Program-made: the position numbers and the translations under genes
Assembly (NCBI RefSeq): GCF_037996765.1
Contig: NZ_JBBNAD010000004.1
Coordinates: 744,001-808,000, forward strand
Source: Bdellovibrio sp. GT3
Lineage (GTDB): Bacteria; Bdellovibrionota; Bdellovibrionia; Bdellovibrionales; Bdellovibrionaceae
Length of the DNA: 64,000 nt
Direction: 5' to 3'
The notes under the pieces: generated by a model
The model's database searches: none
What the model was told of the DNA's origin: nothing
The model's input: the letters and a program-made list of their open reading frames with translations, nothing else
Shown: one piece after another, positions 42,588 through 49,846 of the stretch
Layout of the letters: every line of letters starts with the position of its first letter
Position numbering within the stretch: position 1 is the stretch's first letter

Positions 42588-44324
42588 ATGAATTTTAAAT
42601 GGAAAGAAAGTTTGAAGGGACCACTGATCGCCATTGCCATTTTGGGGGTGGGTTTCTTTTTATTTAAGCACAGACTGACGATCCAAACTGCCAATGCCCG
42701 GGATGACGTTCCTTTAAAGGCCCTTGATAACTCCTGGGCCCAAGGGTGGCATCCGCAAAAAGCCCAAGTTGATTGGAAGGTAAAGCACGTTGCTGCCTAC
42801 TTAAGCTCTGGCGGAACTTCCGTCGCCGTTGCCGACGTGAATGGGGATGGTTACCTGGATCTTCATTTTACGGATCCGGGCGGGGATCCGGCGGGTAAGC
42901 TGTATCTAAACAATCAAGGTAAAGGGTTTACCTTGAATAACGAACGCATTCATTTATTACCGGAAAAGTCCGTGATCAACAGATCTGCATTGTTGGATTT
43001 GGATGATGACGGTCATTTGGATTTGTTTTTACTGGGATTCTGCCCACGTATTGCCTGGGGTGAATCCAATGAAGGCTTTAAAGAATCTGAAACTCAACCA
43101 TTGGGATGCGGTACATTTGGAACTGGCTTTAATTTAGCGGATCTGGATGGCGACGGGCAGTTGGAAATTCTAATTGCCCCTTATGTGGATTTGGATTTCT
43201 TTGGTGATCTGCAAGACACTAATGTCATGCCCACAAACTTCAGTCATGCGATGAATGGAACAAAGCCTTCGGTGTTTCGCCGATCTGGACGTTCTTTTCA
43301 GCGCATTGAGACTCCGATACAACATCGGGGATGGGCGCATTCCGTGGCCGTATGGAAAATGCCAGACTCCAAAGACACCCTTCTTTGGTTTGCCAACGAC
43401 TACGGGATCGATAGAACTTATTTTGTCGGTCCTCAAGGAGTGATGAAGGAAGTTTCTGATTCTATGATCACCGATGCTTTCAGTCGCAACGGCATGAATT
43501 CAGAAATCGTGGATATGGATGGGAATGGGCGTCCTTCTGTTTATGTCAGTCAAATTTATCTGGGGGCGCAAAAGCTTGCGGGCAATATGTTTTGGCGCTG
43601 GTCCGGGGGCCACGAATTCGTAAATAAAGCATCCGAGATGGGAATTCATCGTTGTGGCTGGTCTTGGGGCGCAAAATTTTTTGATTTGGAAAATGATGGG
43701 GATCTGGACCTGTTTGTCGGGAATGGTTTCTTTGCCGGAGAAGTCCCAGGTAAATCCTACTGGTATTTTTTAAACGTGATGGATGCAGCTGATAAGCACG
43801 TATTGAGTGATGCCCTTCGCTGGCCCGCGATCGGCGGTGGTGCACTTTCCGGAGAAGAAAGAGCCTGTCTTTTCGTTAAAGACCATGGTCAGTATAAAAA
43901 CCGCAGTCAGGACGTGAAAGACTTAGCCGACTTTACCGCCAATGAGCGCGGTGTCGCCCTGGTGGATCTGGATAATTCCGGCAGACAAGCCTTAGCAACA
44001 ATCAGTTGGGAGCAAGGCCCCCGCATCTATCGCTGGGAAGGTGCCTTCGGATCCTGGATAGGCTTTGATCTTCATCAAGCCGCCCCCAACAGAGACGCCT
44101 GGGGAGCGTCAGTCATTTTGAAACTGGCTGATGGCAGAACCTTGGGACGACAAAAACAGCCCTTAAATGCTTACGCTGCCCAATCGGACGCGCGCTTGCA
44201 CTTTGGTTTAGGAGCAGGTGAGTTCCCTGAAGGGGTAACAGCTTTGATAACCTGGCCGGATGGAACTCAAATGGAACTTAAAAACCTTAAAGTGGGTGAA
44301 TATCATTCGGTGGTGAAGCCATGA
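42588..44324 (+). CDS. FG-GAP/ASPIC-UnbV (CRTAC1-like) exported protein
   Basis: 578 residues. N-terminal membrane anchor/signal (GPLIAIAILGVGFFLFK). Calcium-loop repeats of FG-GAP/VCBS type recur: VADVNGDGYLDLHF, LLDLDDDGHLDLFLLG, LADLDGDGQLEILI, FFDLENDGDLDLFVG, LVDLDNSGRQAL. The C-terminus matches the ASPIC/UnbV domain (AWGASVILKLADGRT, HFGLGAGEFPEGVTALITWPDGT). This is the architecture of cartilage acidic protein-like CRTAC1. Likely a calcium-bound beta-propeller at the surface. ATGA overlap with the RnfD-like gene. Confidence 0.85.
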   Translation: MNFKWKESLKGPLIAIAILGVGFFLFKHRLTIQTANARDDVPLKALDNSWAQGWHPQKAQVDWKVKHVAAYLSSGGTSVAVADVNGDGYLDLHFTDPGGDPAGKLYLNNQGKGFTLNNERIHLLPEKSVINRSALLDLDDDGHLDLFLLGFCPRIAWGESNEGFKESETQPLGCGTFGTGFNLADLDGDGQLEILIAPYVDLDFFGDLQDTNVMPTNFSHAMNGTKPSVFRRSGRSFQRIETPIQHRGWAHSVAVWKMPDSKDTLLWFANDYGIDRTYFVGPQGVMKEVSDSMITDAFSRNGMNSEIVDMDGNGRPSVYVSQIYLGAQKLAGNMFWRWSGGHEFVNKASEMGIHRCGWSWGAKFFDLENDGDLDLFVGNGFFAGEVPGKSYWYFLNVMDAADKHVLSDALRWPAIGGGALSGEERACLFVKDHGQYKNRSQDVKDLADFTANERGVALVDLDNSGRQALATISWEQGPRIYRWEGAFGSWIGFDLHQAAPNRDAWGASVILKLADGRTLGRQKQPLNAYAAQSDARLHFGLGAGEFPEGVTALITWPDGTQMELKNLKVGEYHSVVKP

Positions 44325-45112
44325 AATGGTTTAATCTAAAAGACCCGCGTCTTCCTATTTTGATTTTTCTTCTAAGCTTTGTTGTCTATGCTTTGCAATC
44401 TCCAGGGTTTGTCAGAACGCCGTGGCAGTTTGTGGGATCCTTGGTGACTTCTTTGGCTGTTGATTATGCATTGATTCGCTTTTACAAGAAGGCGAACTTC
44501 TTTCCCTTAAGCGGATTGATATCTTCATTGGGTTTCTTTTTACTTTTGGACAGTCCCTACGTGTGGCCATATATCGTTGGTGCCGCCTTGATGAATATCT
44601 CCAAACATTTTTTTACCGCTTATGGCCGCCATATTTTTAATCCGAATAATTTCGGTCTGGTTGTGATGGTGTTTTGTTTCCCAATGGCTGCGACCACGAC
44701 GGCGGGTCGCTGGGGTGGGGGGACAGAGCTTGCGTTCATACTCATAGCTTTGGGTTTTTTTGCCGCCTATCGCGCGCAGCGCTGGGTGTTGTCAGTGACG
44801 TATATCTCGGTATTTTTTCTAGGCGCTTTACTGCGGGCTCATCTGCTAAAATTAAGTCTGGCACCACTTCTGGCTCCCATGACCGGCGCGGCGTTTATTT
44901 TGATTTCTTTCTATATGATGACGGACCCTGCGACCTCGCCAAAAAGCAAGAAAATGCAGGTTCTACAGGGAGTGTTTATTGCTTCTCTGGATACTTATCT
45001 GCGCATGCAGCAGTTTAAATACGCACCTTTTGTGACGGTGTTTGTGGCTTGTGCTCTGTATTCAAGTCTGCGCTTTTTAGATCAACCAAGACGGGAACTT
45101 GCAAAGCCGTGA
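44321..45112 (+). CDS. RnfD/NqrB-like membrane protein
   Basis: 263 residues with eight or so membrane segments. Family-like motifs: AYGRHIFNPNNFGL (close to the HIFNPSNF region of NqrB/RnfD) and ISFYMMTDPATSP near the C-terminal end. I do not see a clear flavinylation S/T-G-A-T motif. No other Rnf subunit is nearby, so electron transfer through a full Rnf complex is unlikely. Such stand-alone proteins often sit next to CRTAC1-like genes, as here (from memory). GTGA overlap with the desaturase gene. Confidence 0.72.
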   Translation: MKWFNLKDPRLPILIFLLSFVVYALQSPGFVRTPWQFVGSLVTSLAVDYALIRFYKKANFFPLSGLISSLGFFLLLDSPYVWPYIVGAALMNISKHFFTAYGRHIFNPNNFGLVVMVFCFPMAATTTAGRWGGGTELAFILIALGFFAAYRAQRWVLSVTYISVFFLGALLRAHLLKLSLAPLLAPMTGAAFILISFYMMTDPATSPKSKKMQVLQGVFIASLDTYLRMQQFKYAPFVTVFVACALYSSLRFLDQPRRELAKP

Positions 45113-45849
45113 AGAAGATCATCGTCCGCTTTCTTCATCCGGCTGTGTTTTTAGTTCTATTATCGATGGGAAAAATCGAAATAGAACTTTGGCCGTGGAC
45201 TTTGCTGGCATTTTTCTTGTTCTATGTAGTGGGTCTTGAAATAGGAATGCATCGCTACTATTCCCATCGAAGTTTTGAAATGGCGCCTTGGAAGCTCGCT
45301 GTGATTACTGTTTTAGCTTTGGGCGCAGGGACGGGAAGTCCCATGGTTTGGGCGGGCCGCCATCGCAAGCACCATGATAAGTCGGATACTTCCGAAGATC
45401 CCCATTCCCCCGAGCATCTTGGGTTTTTCAGAGTTCTGACCTTGACGGTCTTTGGAACTAAAATTGAAGGTCGTTACGTTCGGGACTTTGTTAAGGATTC
45501 CCGCCAGCAGTTCCTGCATCGCTATTACACGGAGATCTTGGTTGTATCCGTGGTGTTGTGGGCGATTCTGGCCCCGGTCAGTTGTGCCATGCTGTACTGT
45601 CTGCCGGTAGAGCTGGCACGTCTTGCATCGGGTGCCATCAATGCGTTTGCCCACTCGCCTAAGTGGGGATCGGTGTTTTATGATCGCAGCGATCGCAGTC
45701 GCAACTTAAGTGGAGCGATAGGAAATGCCTTCGGAATCGGGCTGCATCACAATCATCACGAAAGACCCCAAAGTTATCGTCAGAATCATCGTGAAGGTGA
45801 GTACGATCTGAGTGGCTGGATTATCGAAAGATTTTTAAAATCCAAATAG
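45109..45849 (+). CDS. Acyl-CoA/fatty-acid desaturase (type 1)
   Basis: 246 residues from a GTG at 45109. All three histidine boxes are present: HRYYSH (48-53), HRKHH (85-89) and HHNHHE (213-218), plus NAFAHSP, so the di-iron site is intact. Four membrane segments are expected. It introduces a cis double bond in a fatty acyl chain using O2. The last gene of the plus-strand series; its stop overlaps the convergent MBOAT-like gene by 15 bp. Company with envelope genes suggests a dedicated lipid substrate. Confidence 0.9.
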   Translation: MKKIIVRFLHPAVFLVLLSMGKIEIELWPWTLLAFFLFYVVGLEIGMHRYYSHRSFEMAPWKLAVITVLALGAGTGSPMVWAGRHRKHHDKSDTSEDPHSPEHLGFFRVLTLTVFGTKIEGRYVRDFVKDSRQQFLHRYYTEILVVSVVLWAILAPVSCAMLYCLPVELARLASGAINAFAHSPKWGSVFYDRSDRSRNLSGAIGNAFGIGLHHNHHERPQSYRQNHREGEYDLSGWIIERFLKSK

Positions 45850-47127
45850 ATAAGCAAAATATTCCAGCGGAGACGCTGTGGCGCCGGTGTTGTGCAGGGT
45901 CAAAAATCCATACATCAACACGGGAGTTAAAAACAAACTTGCCACGAATATTCTTAAAATCCCCAAAATTCGGGGCACGGAATTTTTCTTGGATGGTCTA
46001 AGGAAAAGCATCGTCAAAGAGAAAGAAACCACCAGGCATAGGTAGACAGAGCGATTTGCCACAACATGGTAAAGACTTGTTCCCGGAATGGTCACATCAC
46101 GATTGATGATATACATCAGCCCAAACAACGGCACACTGAAAGAGATGGCGCAGGCGGTTCGCAGCTTACGATGTTTGATGAAGGAAAAACTTTTGATCAA
46201 AGGTCGATAAAGCAGAATTAAAATCAACCGATTTAAGTAATGCATGATTTTGGACCAGCTTTCGGCAAGCTTTGCATCTGTAAATACCATGGCCCCTAAA
46301 GGCAGATGATATCCACTTAACCGGGCAAAGCCCACGGCCGTATTGGCGATTCCTGCGGTCTTAATAAACATCCAATAAAGTTTTGCGATCAATGAAGCCC
46401 AGCGCATGGGAACGGACATTTCGGCATGAATAAATTCAGTCATTTTAATTGGAAACTTCATGATGGGAAGATGTTCTGTCATGTCGGCAATCCAAAGACA
46501 CAGAATGCCACTGGCCAAGATCAATAATGACTTTCGGGTGGTGCTGTCATTTTCAGGAAGGTCCGAGTAGACCGAATTCAGCTCCTGCGATCCGGCTCCG
46601 ATGGGAAGGCCTCCGAATAGTTTTACATTCCAGGCTGGACTGGAAAGAACACTTTCGGTGAAAATATTTTTTGTGGCAGGAAATATCGATATCCATAAAA
46701 AAGGCCAAAGCAACCATTGCAGATTCACAGCGATGGGGATGGCATTGTTACGGAACAAATAGATGACTGATTCAAATAGCGCAAAGATAAATAGAACGCG
46801 CCATAGAGGTTGGCGAATTATTTGTCTTGCCACCCATAAGATGGCCGTCGCGATAAGCAGGGAAGCCGCATAATACCCAATGGTAAAAACCGTTTCAAAC
46901 TGGGCAGGGGTTTGCATTAAAGCGGCGGGGGCCGCAAGGTAAAAACAAGAATGCCCAAAGGAGGCAATCAGCAAACTTGCGAATTGTTTTTCCCGCCAGA
47001 AGAAATAAGAAAAAATCGGAATTAAAATCCACGGTGAACTAAGGGCCGAGCCGGGCCATTTGATGAATATGATAATCCACAGGCTAAGTGTAATTAGAAA
47101 GAATAAAATTCGGCGGCCAAGGCTCAT
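45835..47127 (-). CDS. Divergent MBOAT-like multi-pass membrane protein
   Basis: 430 residues with ten or more membrane segments. The central stretch GFARLSGYHLPLGAMVFTDAKLAESWSKIMHYLNRLILILLYRPL (about 266-310) parallels the MBOAT core, where a GxARLLGF...P motif precedes a FW-x-x-WH segment; here WSKIMH has its His at 296. Overall the family similarity is weak. MBOATs with an SGNH partner O-acetylate polysaccharides or peptidoglycan. Last gene of the minus-strand fibre series, 7 bp after the fibre gene. Confidence 0.5.
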   Translation of the reverse strand: MSLGRRILFFLITLSLWIIIFIKWPGSALSSPWILIPIFSYFFWREKQFASLLIASFGHSCFYLAAPAALMQTPAQFETVFTIGYYAASLLIATAILWVARQIIRQPLWRVLFIFALFESVIYLFRNNAIPIAVNLQWLLWPFLWISIFPATKNIFTESVLSSPAWNVKLFGGLPIGAGSQELNSVYSDLPENDSTTRKSLLILASGILCLWIADMTEHLPIMKFPIKMTEFIHAEMSVPMRWASLIAKLYWMFIKTAGIANTAVGFARLSGYHLPLGAMVFTDAKLAESWSKIMHYLNRLILILLYRPLIKSFSFIKHRKLRTACAISFSVPLFGLMYIINRDVTIPGTSLYHVVANRSVYLCLVVSFSLTMLFLRPSKKNSVPRILGILRIFVASLFLTPVLMYGFLTLHNTGATASPLEYFAYLFGF

Positions 47128-47134
47128 GCCTTAA

Positions 47135-49012
47135 TTAGTAACCCGTTATCCAGGTCACGTAAACTTTATTTCCTGCGCGCAGCAGGGTGAAAACAGTTTC
47201 GCCATTTGTGTTTTGCAATGTCGGTACGAACTTAAAGTCACCAGCAGCCAATGCCGTCGGTGAGGCTTGGGAGAAACTGCACATTGCTGGAGTGGTGCCA
47301 CGCACTATTAAAGTATAAGAACCACCGTCATACATATTGGAAAAGCTGAAGCTTCCACAGTTGGCCGTGGTGTACTGCAGATTTCCATTGTTCCAGTCAA
47401 TCGTGGTTGCAGCACCCGCATTGTAAACCTTGGATAGGACTTGTCCTTGCACTTCGATGGTAGCGTTAGTGGTCGAAGTTGTGTTGGCGATCATTCGGTC
47501 TGCGACCACGTTGCCTGTAGCTGTGATGTTGCCAGAAGCAGTAACGTTACCGCCACTGACGGCCAATTGATTGGTTCCAACAGTTAAACCATTTGCCGGC
47601 AAATTCAAAGTCCCAGTCATGGTGTCACCAGCTTTATTTACTGGCGTATAACCCAAACCTGTTGTCACGTCAGAGCTTGAAAGGTTGACGTTACCTACCA
47701 CGCGACCTTTGCTGTCGACAGTTACTTTTGCATAGGAACCAGCAGTCACTGTGTCAGGAAGACTGACCACGCCGGCCGCGACGGAAAGGCCCGCGCCGAC
47801 TTGCAATACACCTTGCACTGTTGTTGATCCCACCGGGAAATCCGTGCAGGCAAAAGCGTCGGTAGTCGAAGACCAAGATAGATACTGATTCGCAAGGCAG
47901 CTTGTCGTGGGCCATGGGCTGAGTGCTGTGTTATTTATTAGATCCGTATAGCGAAGCTTCGTAATTTCCCAGGTCGTGGTTGAGTTATTCCAACGCAAAC
48001 CCTGGCCTGTGATAGTGCCGGAGCCAATGGCGATATTCGGAGTGTTGTAAGTTCCGTACTTCACCAGAGGAGAGATTGCAGTCAATCCCACCATAACATT
48101 GTCTGATAGAACAGAATCCAGAATACGACCGCCCGAATCCAACTGCACCAGATTTCCCGGAGCAGTACCAGCATCCAGTGTCGCCGAGTTGCCCAACCCT
48201 AAGTTGTCGCGGGCATCTGCGGGGCTTGCGATATCCGAAAGATTGCTGTTTGGATCCAGCGGGATCAAAGTAAATGCTTCCCAGGAAGCTCCAGTCCAAC
48301 GGTATGTTTGGTTCGCGCTGAGTGTTGGCAGCGGTGCTTCGTTCAATTGATTTGGCTTTTCGTAGCGATCATAGGTGCCGGCTAGCAAATGCAGGAACTT
48401 ATTGTAATCATCACTATCCATTTCATTGGTGGTCACATCAGGAGAAAAACGCAAAAGCTGTCGGGGCTCGTAACCGCCGACTTGCATGGATTCAACGGTG
48501 TAAGGAACATAAGACAGGTTTTGATATTCAAGGGTCTGCACACCCATACCGTCGTTGAAGGAAATAACTAGCCTACGATTTCCACCAGGTGTTGGAGTGA
48601 ATGTTTTTGAAGAAATGATGGATACATGTGTGACCGGGTCGATCTCCTCACAAAATGGAAATGGCCCCAGGACTGCCGGGCGATTGGAGAAAATTTCTGA
48701 AAACGCCACGCCACCGTCGATGCCGGGATCTGATCTAACACCAGAGCCGATATCGATGTTGAACACACCCTTGGAGTTGACCATGTTCAGAGTGTGCATC
48801 TCTTCGTAAAGCAGACAGTTTTCAATACCGGAGGAACGAATTTGCACTTTCAACATTACGCTGGGTGAATTCACGGGCTTGCCATCAGGTCGGATGATGC
48901 GACCCTGATAGCTCATGCTGTTTACTCCAGCAAATGCTGAAGGAGTTCCTGCGATCAACGCAGAAAATAAAAGTGCAAGCCTCCAAAGAAAGTTCATGAC
49001 TCGAGCTTTCAT
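47135..49012 (-). CDS. Fibre-like adhesin (mosaic adhesive trimer-like)
   Basis: 625 residues. Signal peptide (FLWRLALLFSALIAGTPSAFA), then an N-terminal domain with SYQGRIIRPDGKPVNSPSVM, then phage tail-fibre-style sequence: DNLGLGNSATLDAGT, GDTMTGTLNLPANGL, GNITATGNVVADRM. A C-terminal domain of about 80 residues ends in NKVYVTWITGY. This resembles the fibre-like mosaic adhesive trimer (MAT) proteins reported in Bdellovibrio, likely homotrimeric and used in prey recognition. ATG at 49012; overlaps the upstream lipoprotein gene by 4 bp. Confidence 0.75.
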   Translation of the reverse strand: MKARVMNFLWRLALLFSALIAGTPSAFAGVNSMSYQGRIIRPDGKPVNSPSVMLKVQIRSSGIENCLLYEEMHTLNMVNSKGVFNIDIGSGVRSDPGIDGGVAFSEIFSNRPAVLGPFPFCEEIDPVTHVSIISSKTFTPTPGGNRRLVISFNDGMGVQTLEYQNLSYVPYTVESMQVGGYEPRQLLRFSPDVTTNEMDSDDYNKFLHLLAGTYDRYEKPNQLNEAPLPTLSANQTYRWTGASWEAFTLIPLDPNSNLSDIASPADARDNLGLGNSATLDAGTAPGNLVQLDSGGRILDSVLSDNVMVGLTAISPLVKYGTYNTPNIAIGSGTITGQGLRWNNSTTTWEITKLRYTDLINNTALSPWPTTSCLANQYLSWSSTTDAFACTDFPVGSTTVQGVLQVGAGLSVAAGVVSLPDTVTAGSYAKVTVDSKGRVVGNVNLSSSDVTTGLGYTPVNKAGDTMTGTLNLPANGLTVGTNQLAVSGGNVTASGNITATGNVVADRMIANTTSTTNATIEVQGQVLSKVYNAGAATTIDWNNGNLQYTTANCGSFSFSNMYDGGSYTLIVRGTTPAMCSFSQASPTALAAGDFKFVPTLQNTNGETVFTLLRAGNKVYVTWITGY

Positions 49013-49344
49013 GGTGTCGCCGCCGGCAAAGAGTGGGAGGTGTGGAAATCCAATACGAACTGATCTTCAAATAAAGTTCCTTGAAAGCTGGTCATGACCG
49101 TATAGCCGGAAACTGTACGTGTTGCGATACGATCGTTAAGCATGCTGATGGAAACCTGACCGGTGTATCCGTCTTCTGTAATGACATTTTGATTGCTTAA
49201 AGGGGTCATGCCCAAGGCTGTTGGGAAGCGACTGTTGTCACCACGAATAGTCACGTCCATTGAGCATCCTGTCAGTGTGGATGCCAAAAGAAGTGCTATG
49301 AAAAGTGTCTCAAACAAAGACGTTCCAGTTGTTTCCATTTTCAT
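49009..49344 (-). CDS. Small lipoprotein, partner of the fibre gene
   Basis: 111 residues. The lipobox TLTGC (Cys27) follows a hydrophobic stretch (LFIALLLASTL), so it is a lipoprotein anchored in the envelope. The mature part (MDVTIRGDNSRFPTALGM...) has no recognised domain. Its stop overlaps the fibre gene start, which suggests co-expression and perhaps a role in anchoring the fibre (inference). Confidence 0.7.
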   Translation of the reverse strand: MKMETTGTSLFETLFIALLLASTLTGCSMDVTIRGDNSRFPTALGMTPLSNQNVITEDGYTGQVSISMLNDRIATRTVSGYTVMTSFQGTLFEDQFVLDFHTSHSLPAATP

Positions 49345-49423: not shown

Positions 49424-49846
49424 ATGAGTGGTTACAAAAGCAAAATTATCATCGCAATTTGTATTTCAATTTCAATCGCGACCATGGTCTATCTGATTTC
49501 GAAGAACTATCATTTGTTCGTTTCAGAGGTTGTGAGTCCCTCTCAGGGACCCTCTTGGAACTGGTGTCCCTTGGATGTTGTTGAAATCAGAAATTTAGAG
49601 GAAGGATCCTTGACCGCGGAGCCGAAGGATCTTGCTTTGCTGTGTGATGTGGTGATGGACGAAGAATCAACGGGCCAGCTTGTCGGGATGAAATTTAAGC
49701 CTCTCTTAATGGCTCGGGGTAAGTCCGCATCCAGCAGTATATTGGAAGCGGCTGAGGATAAAGATCACTTCCGTGTTGATGGTCAGGTCTTCAAGTCGCG
49801 TCGATTGCAGGCAGTTTTGGTCAGAACAAATTTTAAAAAGCCATAA
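49424..49846 (+). CDS. Membrane-anchored protein of unknown function
   Basis: 140 residues, one N-terminal membrane segment (IIIAICISISIATMVYLI), remainder extracytoplasmic with two cysteines (WNWCPLD, LLCDVV). No domain recognised. Its 3' end overlaps the convergent beta-barrel-like gene by 14 bp. Confidence 0.65.
   Translation: MSGYKSKIIIAICISISIATMVYLISKNYHLFVSEVVSPSQGPSWNWCPLDVVEIRNLEEGSLTAEPKDLALLCDVVMDEESTGQLVGMKFKPLLMARGKSASSSILEAAEDKDHFRVDGQVFKSRRLQAVLVRTNFKKP

Follow-up and report, generated by a model that had tools for sequence, protein, structure and literature searches.

In the genome of Bdellovibrio sp. GT3, the gene for a putative fibre of the mosaic adhesive trimer (MAT) family overlaps the gene for a small lipoprotein, and the family to which this lipoprotein belongs is paired with MATs in related genomes far beyond chance. 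We propose, with a probability of roughly 60%, that the lipoprotein is the dedicated partner and the outer-membrane anchor of the MAT prey-binding fibre. Predatory Bdellovibrio bacteria have numerous fibres on their surface with which they presumably hold on to prey; the lipoprotein is a testable candidate for the part that fixes such a fibre to the cell. In what follows, the window is the whole stretch of 64,000 nucleotides that was analysed.

The lipoprotein and fibre genes

On its minus strand, the window contains three adjacent open reading frames (ORFs), namely, those for a lipoprotein of 111 amino acids (stop included; 49009..49344), a fibre of 625 amino acids (47135..49012) and a polytopic membrane protein of 430 amino acids (45835..47127), all of which are real and lie where the initial annotation had placed them. 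Also as annotated, the lipoprotein and fibre genes overlap, with the ATGA at 49009..49012 (minus strand) serving in common as the stop of the former and the start of the latter, and the third ORF starts 7 bp downstream of the fibre stop codon. The ATGA overlap suggests translational coupling of the lipoprotein and fibre genes, and, because the neighbour at 49424 is on the opposite strand, the lipoprotein gene is the first in the unit. This neighbour (49424-49846, plus strand) is a 140-amino acid ORF with a hydrophobic N-terminus and no Pfam match, divergent from the lipoprotein gene across approximately 80 bp.

The 625-amino acid protein, in which a fibre like the Bdellovibrio MATs had been suspected, is recognizable as a member of the MAT family: it matches the NCBIfam profile NF053851 (Bdello_MAT_N) with 101.2 bits, against a cut-off of 60, and in the scan of its own genome the same domain, which is of the divergent type, scores 104 bits. 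The matching N-terminal domain (residues 21-185; 48458..48952, minus strand) is presumed to be proximal to the cell, and a hydrophobic start, MNFLWRLALLFSALIAGTPSAFA, located ahead of residue 29, is by inspection a signal peptide. The phage fibre-type repeats 'SNLSDIASPADARDNLGLG' match a solved phage fibre weakly (E 0.019), and so does the protein a PHROG tail fibre (E 0.0018); there is no match in Pfam and none to the S74 domain. The C-terminal tip region (approximately residues 518-625; 47138..47461, minus strand) is common to another MAT of the same genome (at G000:C1), with 36% identity over residues 400-625 and 30% in the alignment of the two N-domains, a C-terminal likeness that indicates exchange of tips, as Caulton et al. 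2024 (PMC10769870) also describe for MATs. Among solved structures, no relative of the tip is found at an E-value of 1, and the lone phage fibre match falls outside it. The source genome has six MATs, and NF053851 is present in all 24 genomes of the genus Bdellovibrio. In having an N-domain above the cut-off, a signal peptide, fibre-type repeats and an exchangeable tip, the window fibre resembles the MATs of Bdellovibrio bacteriovorus as described in the text of PMC10769870; it differs in that its tip has no solved relative and its N-domain is of the divergent type.

The 111-amino acid protein has a predicted signal peptide and a lipobox, LTGC-S (residues 24-28), whose cysteine, Cys27 in this protein, is invariant across 18 aligned sequences. 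The serine at position +2 of the lipobox fits outer-membrane sorting under the E. coli rule. Apart from the lipobox, most of the conserved columns belong to a C-terminal two-strand repeat (SNQNVITEDGYTGQVSISM...TVSGYTVMTSFQGTLF; 49066..49197, minus strand), which is seen in two alignments and in the profile links between lipoprotein classes. No family in Pfam, PHROG or NCBIfam matches the protein above the cut-off. The YgdI/YgdR lipoproteins (NF033216) also are small and have a signal peptide but reach only 12 bits, against a cut-off of 42, and carry other C-terminal repeats.

Association of the lipoprotein family with MATs

The lipoprotein sequence alone found matches in 13 of 59 genomes, with a MAT ORF directly downstream at 12 of the 17 foreign loci, and the family profile built from the 18 aligned sequences matched 67 of 118 related genomes. 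Within 80 regions taken by lipoprotein hit alone, weaker hits and hits to long ORFs being mostly left out, there are 81 family genes. Forty-two of these precede a MAT of the same strand by no more than 400 nt, a fraction somewhat biased by the profile having been made mostly from MAT-adjacent copies; 12 come after canonical MATs; and 27 are alone within the stretch examined, so that the family may have other roles as well. By simple arithmetic, with approximately 20 MATs among what we take to be some 3,500 genes, the chance of adjacency is below 1%. The window lipoprotein gene, which overlaps that of a divergent-type MAT directly downstream, is arranged like those 42. At L103 and L107 (genomes G020 and G007, both of the genus), a second, stand-alone lipoprotein of the QLTGFVSGSS type has no MAT within approximately 7 kb.

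We found no lipoprotein-MAT gene fusions, which would have been direct evidence of contact, in 10 regions chosen for their long-ORF hits, nine of which (all except L302, from the source genome) contain a local hit of the lipoprotein profile. In seven of the nine, only the signal-peptide end or the N-terminal part of the profile is matched, by large proteins without a MAT domain, and the two others, L305 and L306, are adjoining, separate lipoprotein and MAT ORFs. At L305, L306 and L152, all from other relatives, the C-terminal lipoprotein motif ends larger ORFs (204-467 amino acids) directly upstream of MATs.

When the pairing is counted from the MAT side, under one criterion in eight genomes, a small lipoprotein gene is found directly upstream of 31 of the 43 divergent MATs versus 1 of the 44 canonical ones (Fisher p 1e-12), and a form of the criterion with a narrower search window gives 26/43 versus 1/44. 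The eight are an HD100-like genome, the source genome and six further genomes, the last contributing every one of their 33 divergent MATs and 27 of their 86 canonical ones; the boundary between the two types, 195 bits, was set after the scores had been seen, with the HD100 split unchanged from 181 to 216 bits. The lone canonical positive, L178, is false, the protein being polytopic, one of the 31 divergent positives (L266) is the end of the preceding MAT, and one divergent negative (L267) has a lipoprotein by eye. The HD100-like genome, with 21 MATs, the same as the published count (PMC10769870), has a lipoprotein gene upstream of six of its seven divergent MATs (109-181 bits) versus none of its 14 canonical MATs (at least 216 bits), three canonical MATs with large or polytopic upstream ORFs in a looser listing having been set aside by eye. 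The lipoprotein genes of the six pairs range from 56 nt upstream of the MAT to a 5-nt overlap with it, and by tip match or size the pairs include Bd2740, Bd2734, Bd2439 and Bd3182. Two MATs of this genome match PDB 8OKS and 8OKW, the entries for Bd2740 and Bd2734, and these B. bacteriovorus fibres (627 and 843 amino acids, identified from their size and their tip matches in PDB) are preceded by lipoprotein genes just as the window MAT is.

The contrast between divergent and canonical MATs is strong and yet not absolute, because a few canonical MATs, at L162, L163 and L164, are directly preceded by a lipoprotein of the canonical type; L162 (genome G007) belongs to the canonical MATs outside the 27 taken for the count of 1/44. 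On the other side, 12 of the 43 divergent MATs have no lipoprotein by the automatic criterion, including all four genes of the Bd2872 type, and two further class-1 MATs of one MAG (L234, L236) are without a lipoprotein as well. Each of the four Bd2872-type MATs (L188, L238, L245 and L250) follows, at a distance of approximately 200 nt, a gene for a conserved Cys-rich protein of 216-287 amino acids, possibly a different partner.

Ten profile comparisons among five classes of mature lipoproteins make most of the classes recognizable as one family. Four comparisons reach 90-98%: class 1, which includes the window lipoprotein, is linked to the canonical type (98%), to class 2, the Bd2439 type (96%), and to class 4, the Bd2740 type (92%), and the canonical type is linked to class 2 (90%). 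The remaining comparisons, six in all, are weak, above all those with class 3 (the Bd3182 type, approximately 190 amino acids), and four are at or below 2.3%; class 3 reaches 33% with class 2 on the C-terminal 38 residues and 67% with class 4, the latter on its own first 14 residues. What the classes have in common is a pair of strands at the C-terminus, both of the G-Y-x-V-x-S type.

Of the 24 genomes of the genus, 20 have the highly conserved canonical lipoprotein (at least 136 bits), each in exactly one copy; in the HD100-like genome, its gene lies at G006:C1:3191082-3191366. These are 20 of the 21 genomes that have canonical MATs, and G004, G008 and G016, which have no canonical MATs, are without a strong canonical lipoprotein; the exception is G017 (L227), whose complete genome contains many canonical MATs but lacks a strong canonical lipoprotein. 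The genes for the 20 canonical lipoproteins come after canonical MATs in 12 cases, directly before one in three and alone in the stretch examined in five.

Across 59 pairs from 28 genomes, the distances between lipoproteins correlate with the distances between the N-domains of their MATs (Spearman rho 0.594), and when lipoproteins were permuted within genomes, the maximum was 0.41, so that none of 1000 trials reached the observed value. The correlation exceeds that in the within-genome permutations, and hence the pairs travel as units. At the level of sequence comparison, then, the lipoprotein family is tied to the divergent MATs, and the partners diverge together. Such paired divergence would fit co-adaptation without requiring it, given that tight linkage alone can yield the same pattern.

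A candidate anchor for the fibre

We infer the following mechanism. After export, the lipoprotein would most likely receive its lipid at Cys27 and be sorted to the outer membrane, where its C-terminal beta repeats would bind to the conserved N-domain of the MAT, perhaps, by a strand added to the beta sandwich of that domain. The trimeric fibre would thereby be fixed to the surface of the predator with its variable tip pointing outward. Divergent-type MATs would mostly bring their own lipoprotein gene; the canonical MATs, most of which have no lipoprotein gene directly before them, may share the one conserved single-copy lipoprotein in trans, as suggested by its occurrence among the genomes, uncorrected for their kinship. 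The initial annotation had already given the fibre an anchor of its own, a proposal that is much better supported now that a MAT-linked lipoprotein family is seen across the order and that would probably involve direct binding of the two proteins.

A hint of how the two proteins might interact comes from a structure model of a single fused chain, which consists of the mature lipoprotein of L233, its stop codon read as glycine, the MAT signal peptide and the MAT N-domain. This chain was modelled with an alignment of eight further MAT N-domain rows, without relatives of the lipoprotein, because, in joint alignments, the rows of the lipoprotein were wrongly aligned with the MAT domain. The model overall has a pLDDT of 58 and a pTM of 0.60, with mostly 70-90 in the MAT N-domain; within the lipoprotein, residues 31-50 (around YTTKGYEVQSSVSYY) reach a pLDDT of 64, versus 20-44 elsewhere in the lipoprotein and the linker. 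In structural alignments, all 50 rows listed start at residues 8-40, that is, inside the lipoprotein part (residues 1-76), and most of these at residues 36-40, where the second modelled lipoprotein strand starts; the best Z score, 7.9, can, according to the tool, reflect a common arrangement. Foldseek found no match to the model at E 0.001 or better among PDB entries and viral models. The model, a weak one, seems to place a conserved strand of the lipoprotein in the beta sandwich of the MAT N-domain and thus hints at strand complementation without establishing it.

Complementation of one subunit by a strand donated from another protein is known from chaperone-usher pili. In the fused model, similarly, a strand of one protein appears to complete the beta sandwich of another; unlike in those pili, the strand would come from an outer-membrane protein with a lipid anchor and would be received by the base of a trimeric fibre of the phage-like kind. 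A specific form of the anchor proposal, in which the N-sandwich of the MATs is incomplete and lipoproteins lend it a strand, each divergent MAT having its cognate lipoprotein and all canonical ones, which number 14 in the HD100-like genome, a single shared lipoprotein, is a tentative extension that may well be wrong.

Conceivably, the lipoprotein could act in secretion or assembly, as a pilot or chaperone that assists passage through the outer membrane or periplasmic folding of the N-domain and is absent from the finished fibre. The pairing and the paired divergence are equally expected for such a factor and for an anchor, and the lending of a strand, if the fused model is right, suits a chaperone just as well; the fibre would nevertheless still need an anchor, for which a lipid-modified partner on the cell-proximal domain is the simplest solution, and we consider a purely assisting role unlikely. 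The lipoprotein might also have a function of its own, at the surface or in regulation, and travel with MATs as part of a mobile adhesion module without binding the fibre. This would account for the 27 of 81 family genes without a MAT nearby in the stretch examined, and linkage alone gives paired divergence, but it sits poorly with pairing that depends strictly on the class of the MAT (31/43 versus 1/44) and recurs in several classes of MAT N-domains, and with the conservation of the C-terminal repeats of the lipoprotein, so that we regard it as quite improbable.

The lipoprotein family is the best candidate known to us for the surface element that binds the MAT N-domain, which Caulton et al. 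2024 (PMC10769870) left unidentified. The words 'lipoprotein' and 'operon' are not mentioned in the main text of that paper, and no lipoprotein partner of MATs is named in the literature searched, which includes PMC11003981, PMC12546842, PMC10792529 and PMC12034629 and leaves supplements and most subscription journals out of its scope. Single MAT deletions have, according to the same text of Caulton et al. 2024 (PMC10769870), mild or no effects, which are ascribed to redundancy. Should the canonical MATs indeed share one lipoprotein, deletion of its gene should remove many fibres simultaneously, and so would test the role of the fibres in a manner beyond the reach of single-MAT deletions; one gene would then control the display of most of the prey-recognition fibres.

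The downstream membrane protein

The initial annotation viewed the 430-amino acid protein as MBOAT-like and as an enzyme that modifies the fibre, neither of which held up as proposed. The protein has no match in Pfam (including PF03062, at an E-value of 1), PHROGs, NCBIfam or PDB sequences and no relatives in the genome-contig search, and among 368 genomes of the phylum its gene is found only in the source genome; four weak foreign matches were rejected as short, stop-laden or, by eye, from another transporter family (L224). In a comparison with a profile of 29 MBOATs from the source genome and its relatives, HHalign aligned residues 237-339 collinearly with the MBOAT signature region, at a sub-threshold probability of 21-29% and a score of 34-35, versus maxima of 24.4 among 100 block shuffles and 26.8 among 32 polytopic controls. 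The conserved histidines of MBOATs lie in the FW-x-x-WH and GLWH motifs. In the best alignment, both histidines of the profile fall on other residues, a methionine and Tyr339. Thus, the protein shares with MBOATs (PF03062, with a member at G000:C6 in the source genome) the polytopic architecture and the collinear segment but differs from them as an orphan with no Pfam match and with both profile histidines replaced, and may be a decayed MBOAT relative, judging from its sequence. AlphaFold2 modelled it alone, from the single sequence, with a pLDDT of 46.7.

A unit consisting of the fibre, its anchor and a fibre-modifying MBOAT enzyme would be favoured by the 7-bp spacing and the common orientation of the genes and by an HHalign score above all shuffle and control maxima. 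Against it stand, in addition to the low HHalign probability and the replaced histidines, the presence of the gene in one of the 368 genomes and the lack of a polytopic protein as the next one after the MAT in all 35 other direct-pair rows whose sequence extends past the MAT (one locus being present in two rows). Given the single-genome occurrence and the 0/35 rows, we reject an MBOAT enzyme as a conserved component, and we consider the three-part unit extremely improbable. The 430-amino acid gene is an orphan and a local passenger, and the conserved arrangement, to which we ascribe the anchoring of the fibre, would comprise the lipoprotein and the MAT. Convergent with the 430-amino acid gene, and slightly overlapping its end, is a plus-strand run of three genes (42588-45849) that encode, according to Pfam, an FG-GAP/ASPIC-UnbV protein, an NQR2/RnfD-like membrane protein and a fatty-acid desaturase.
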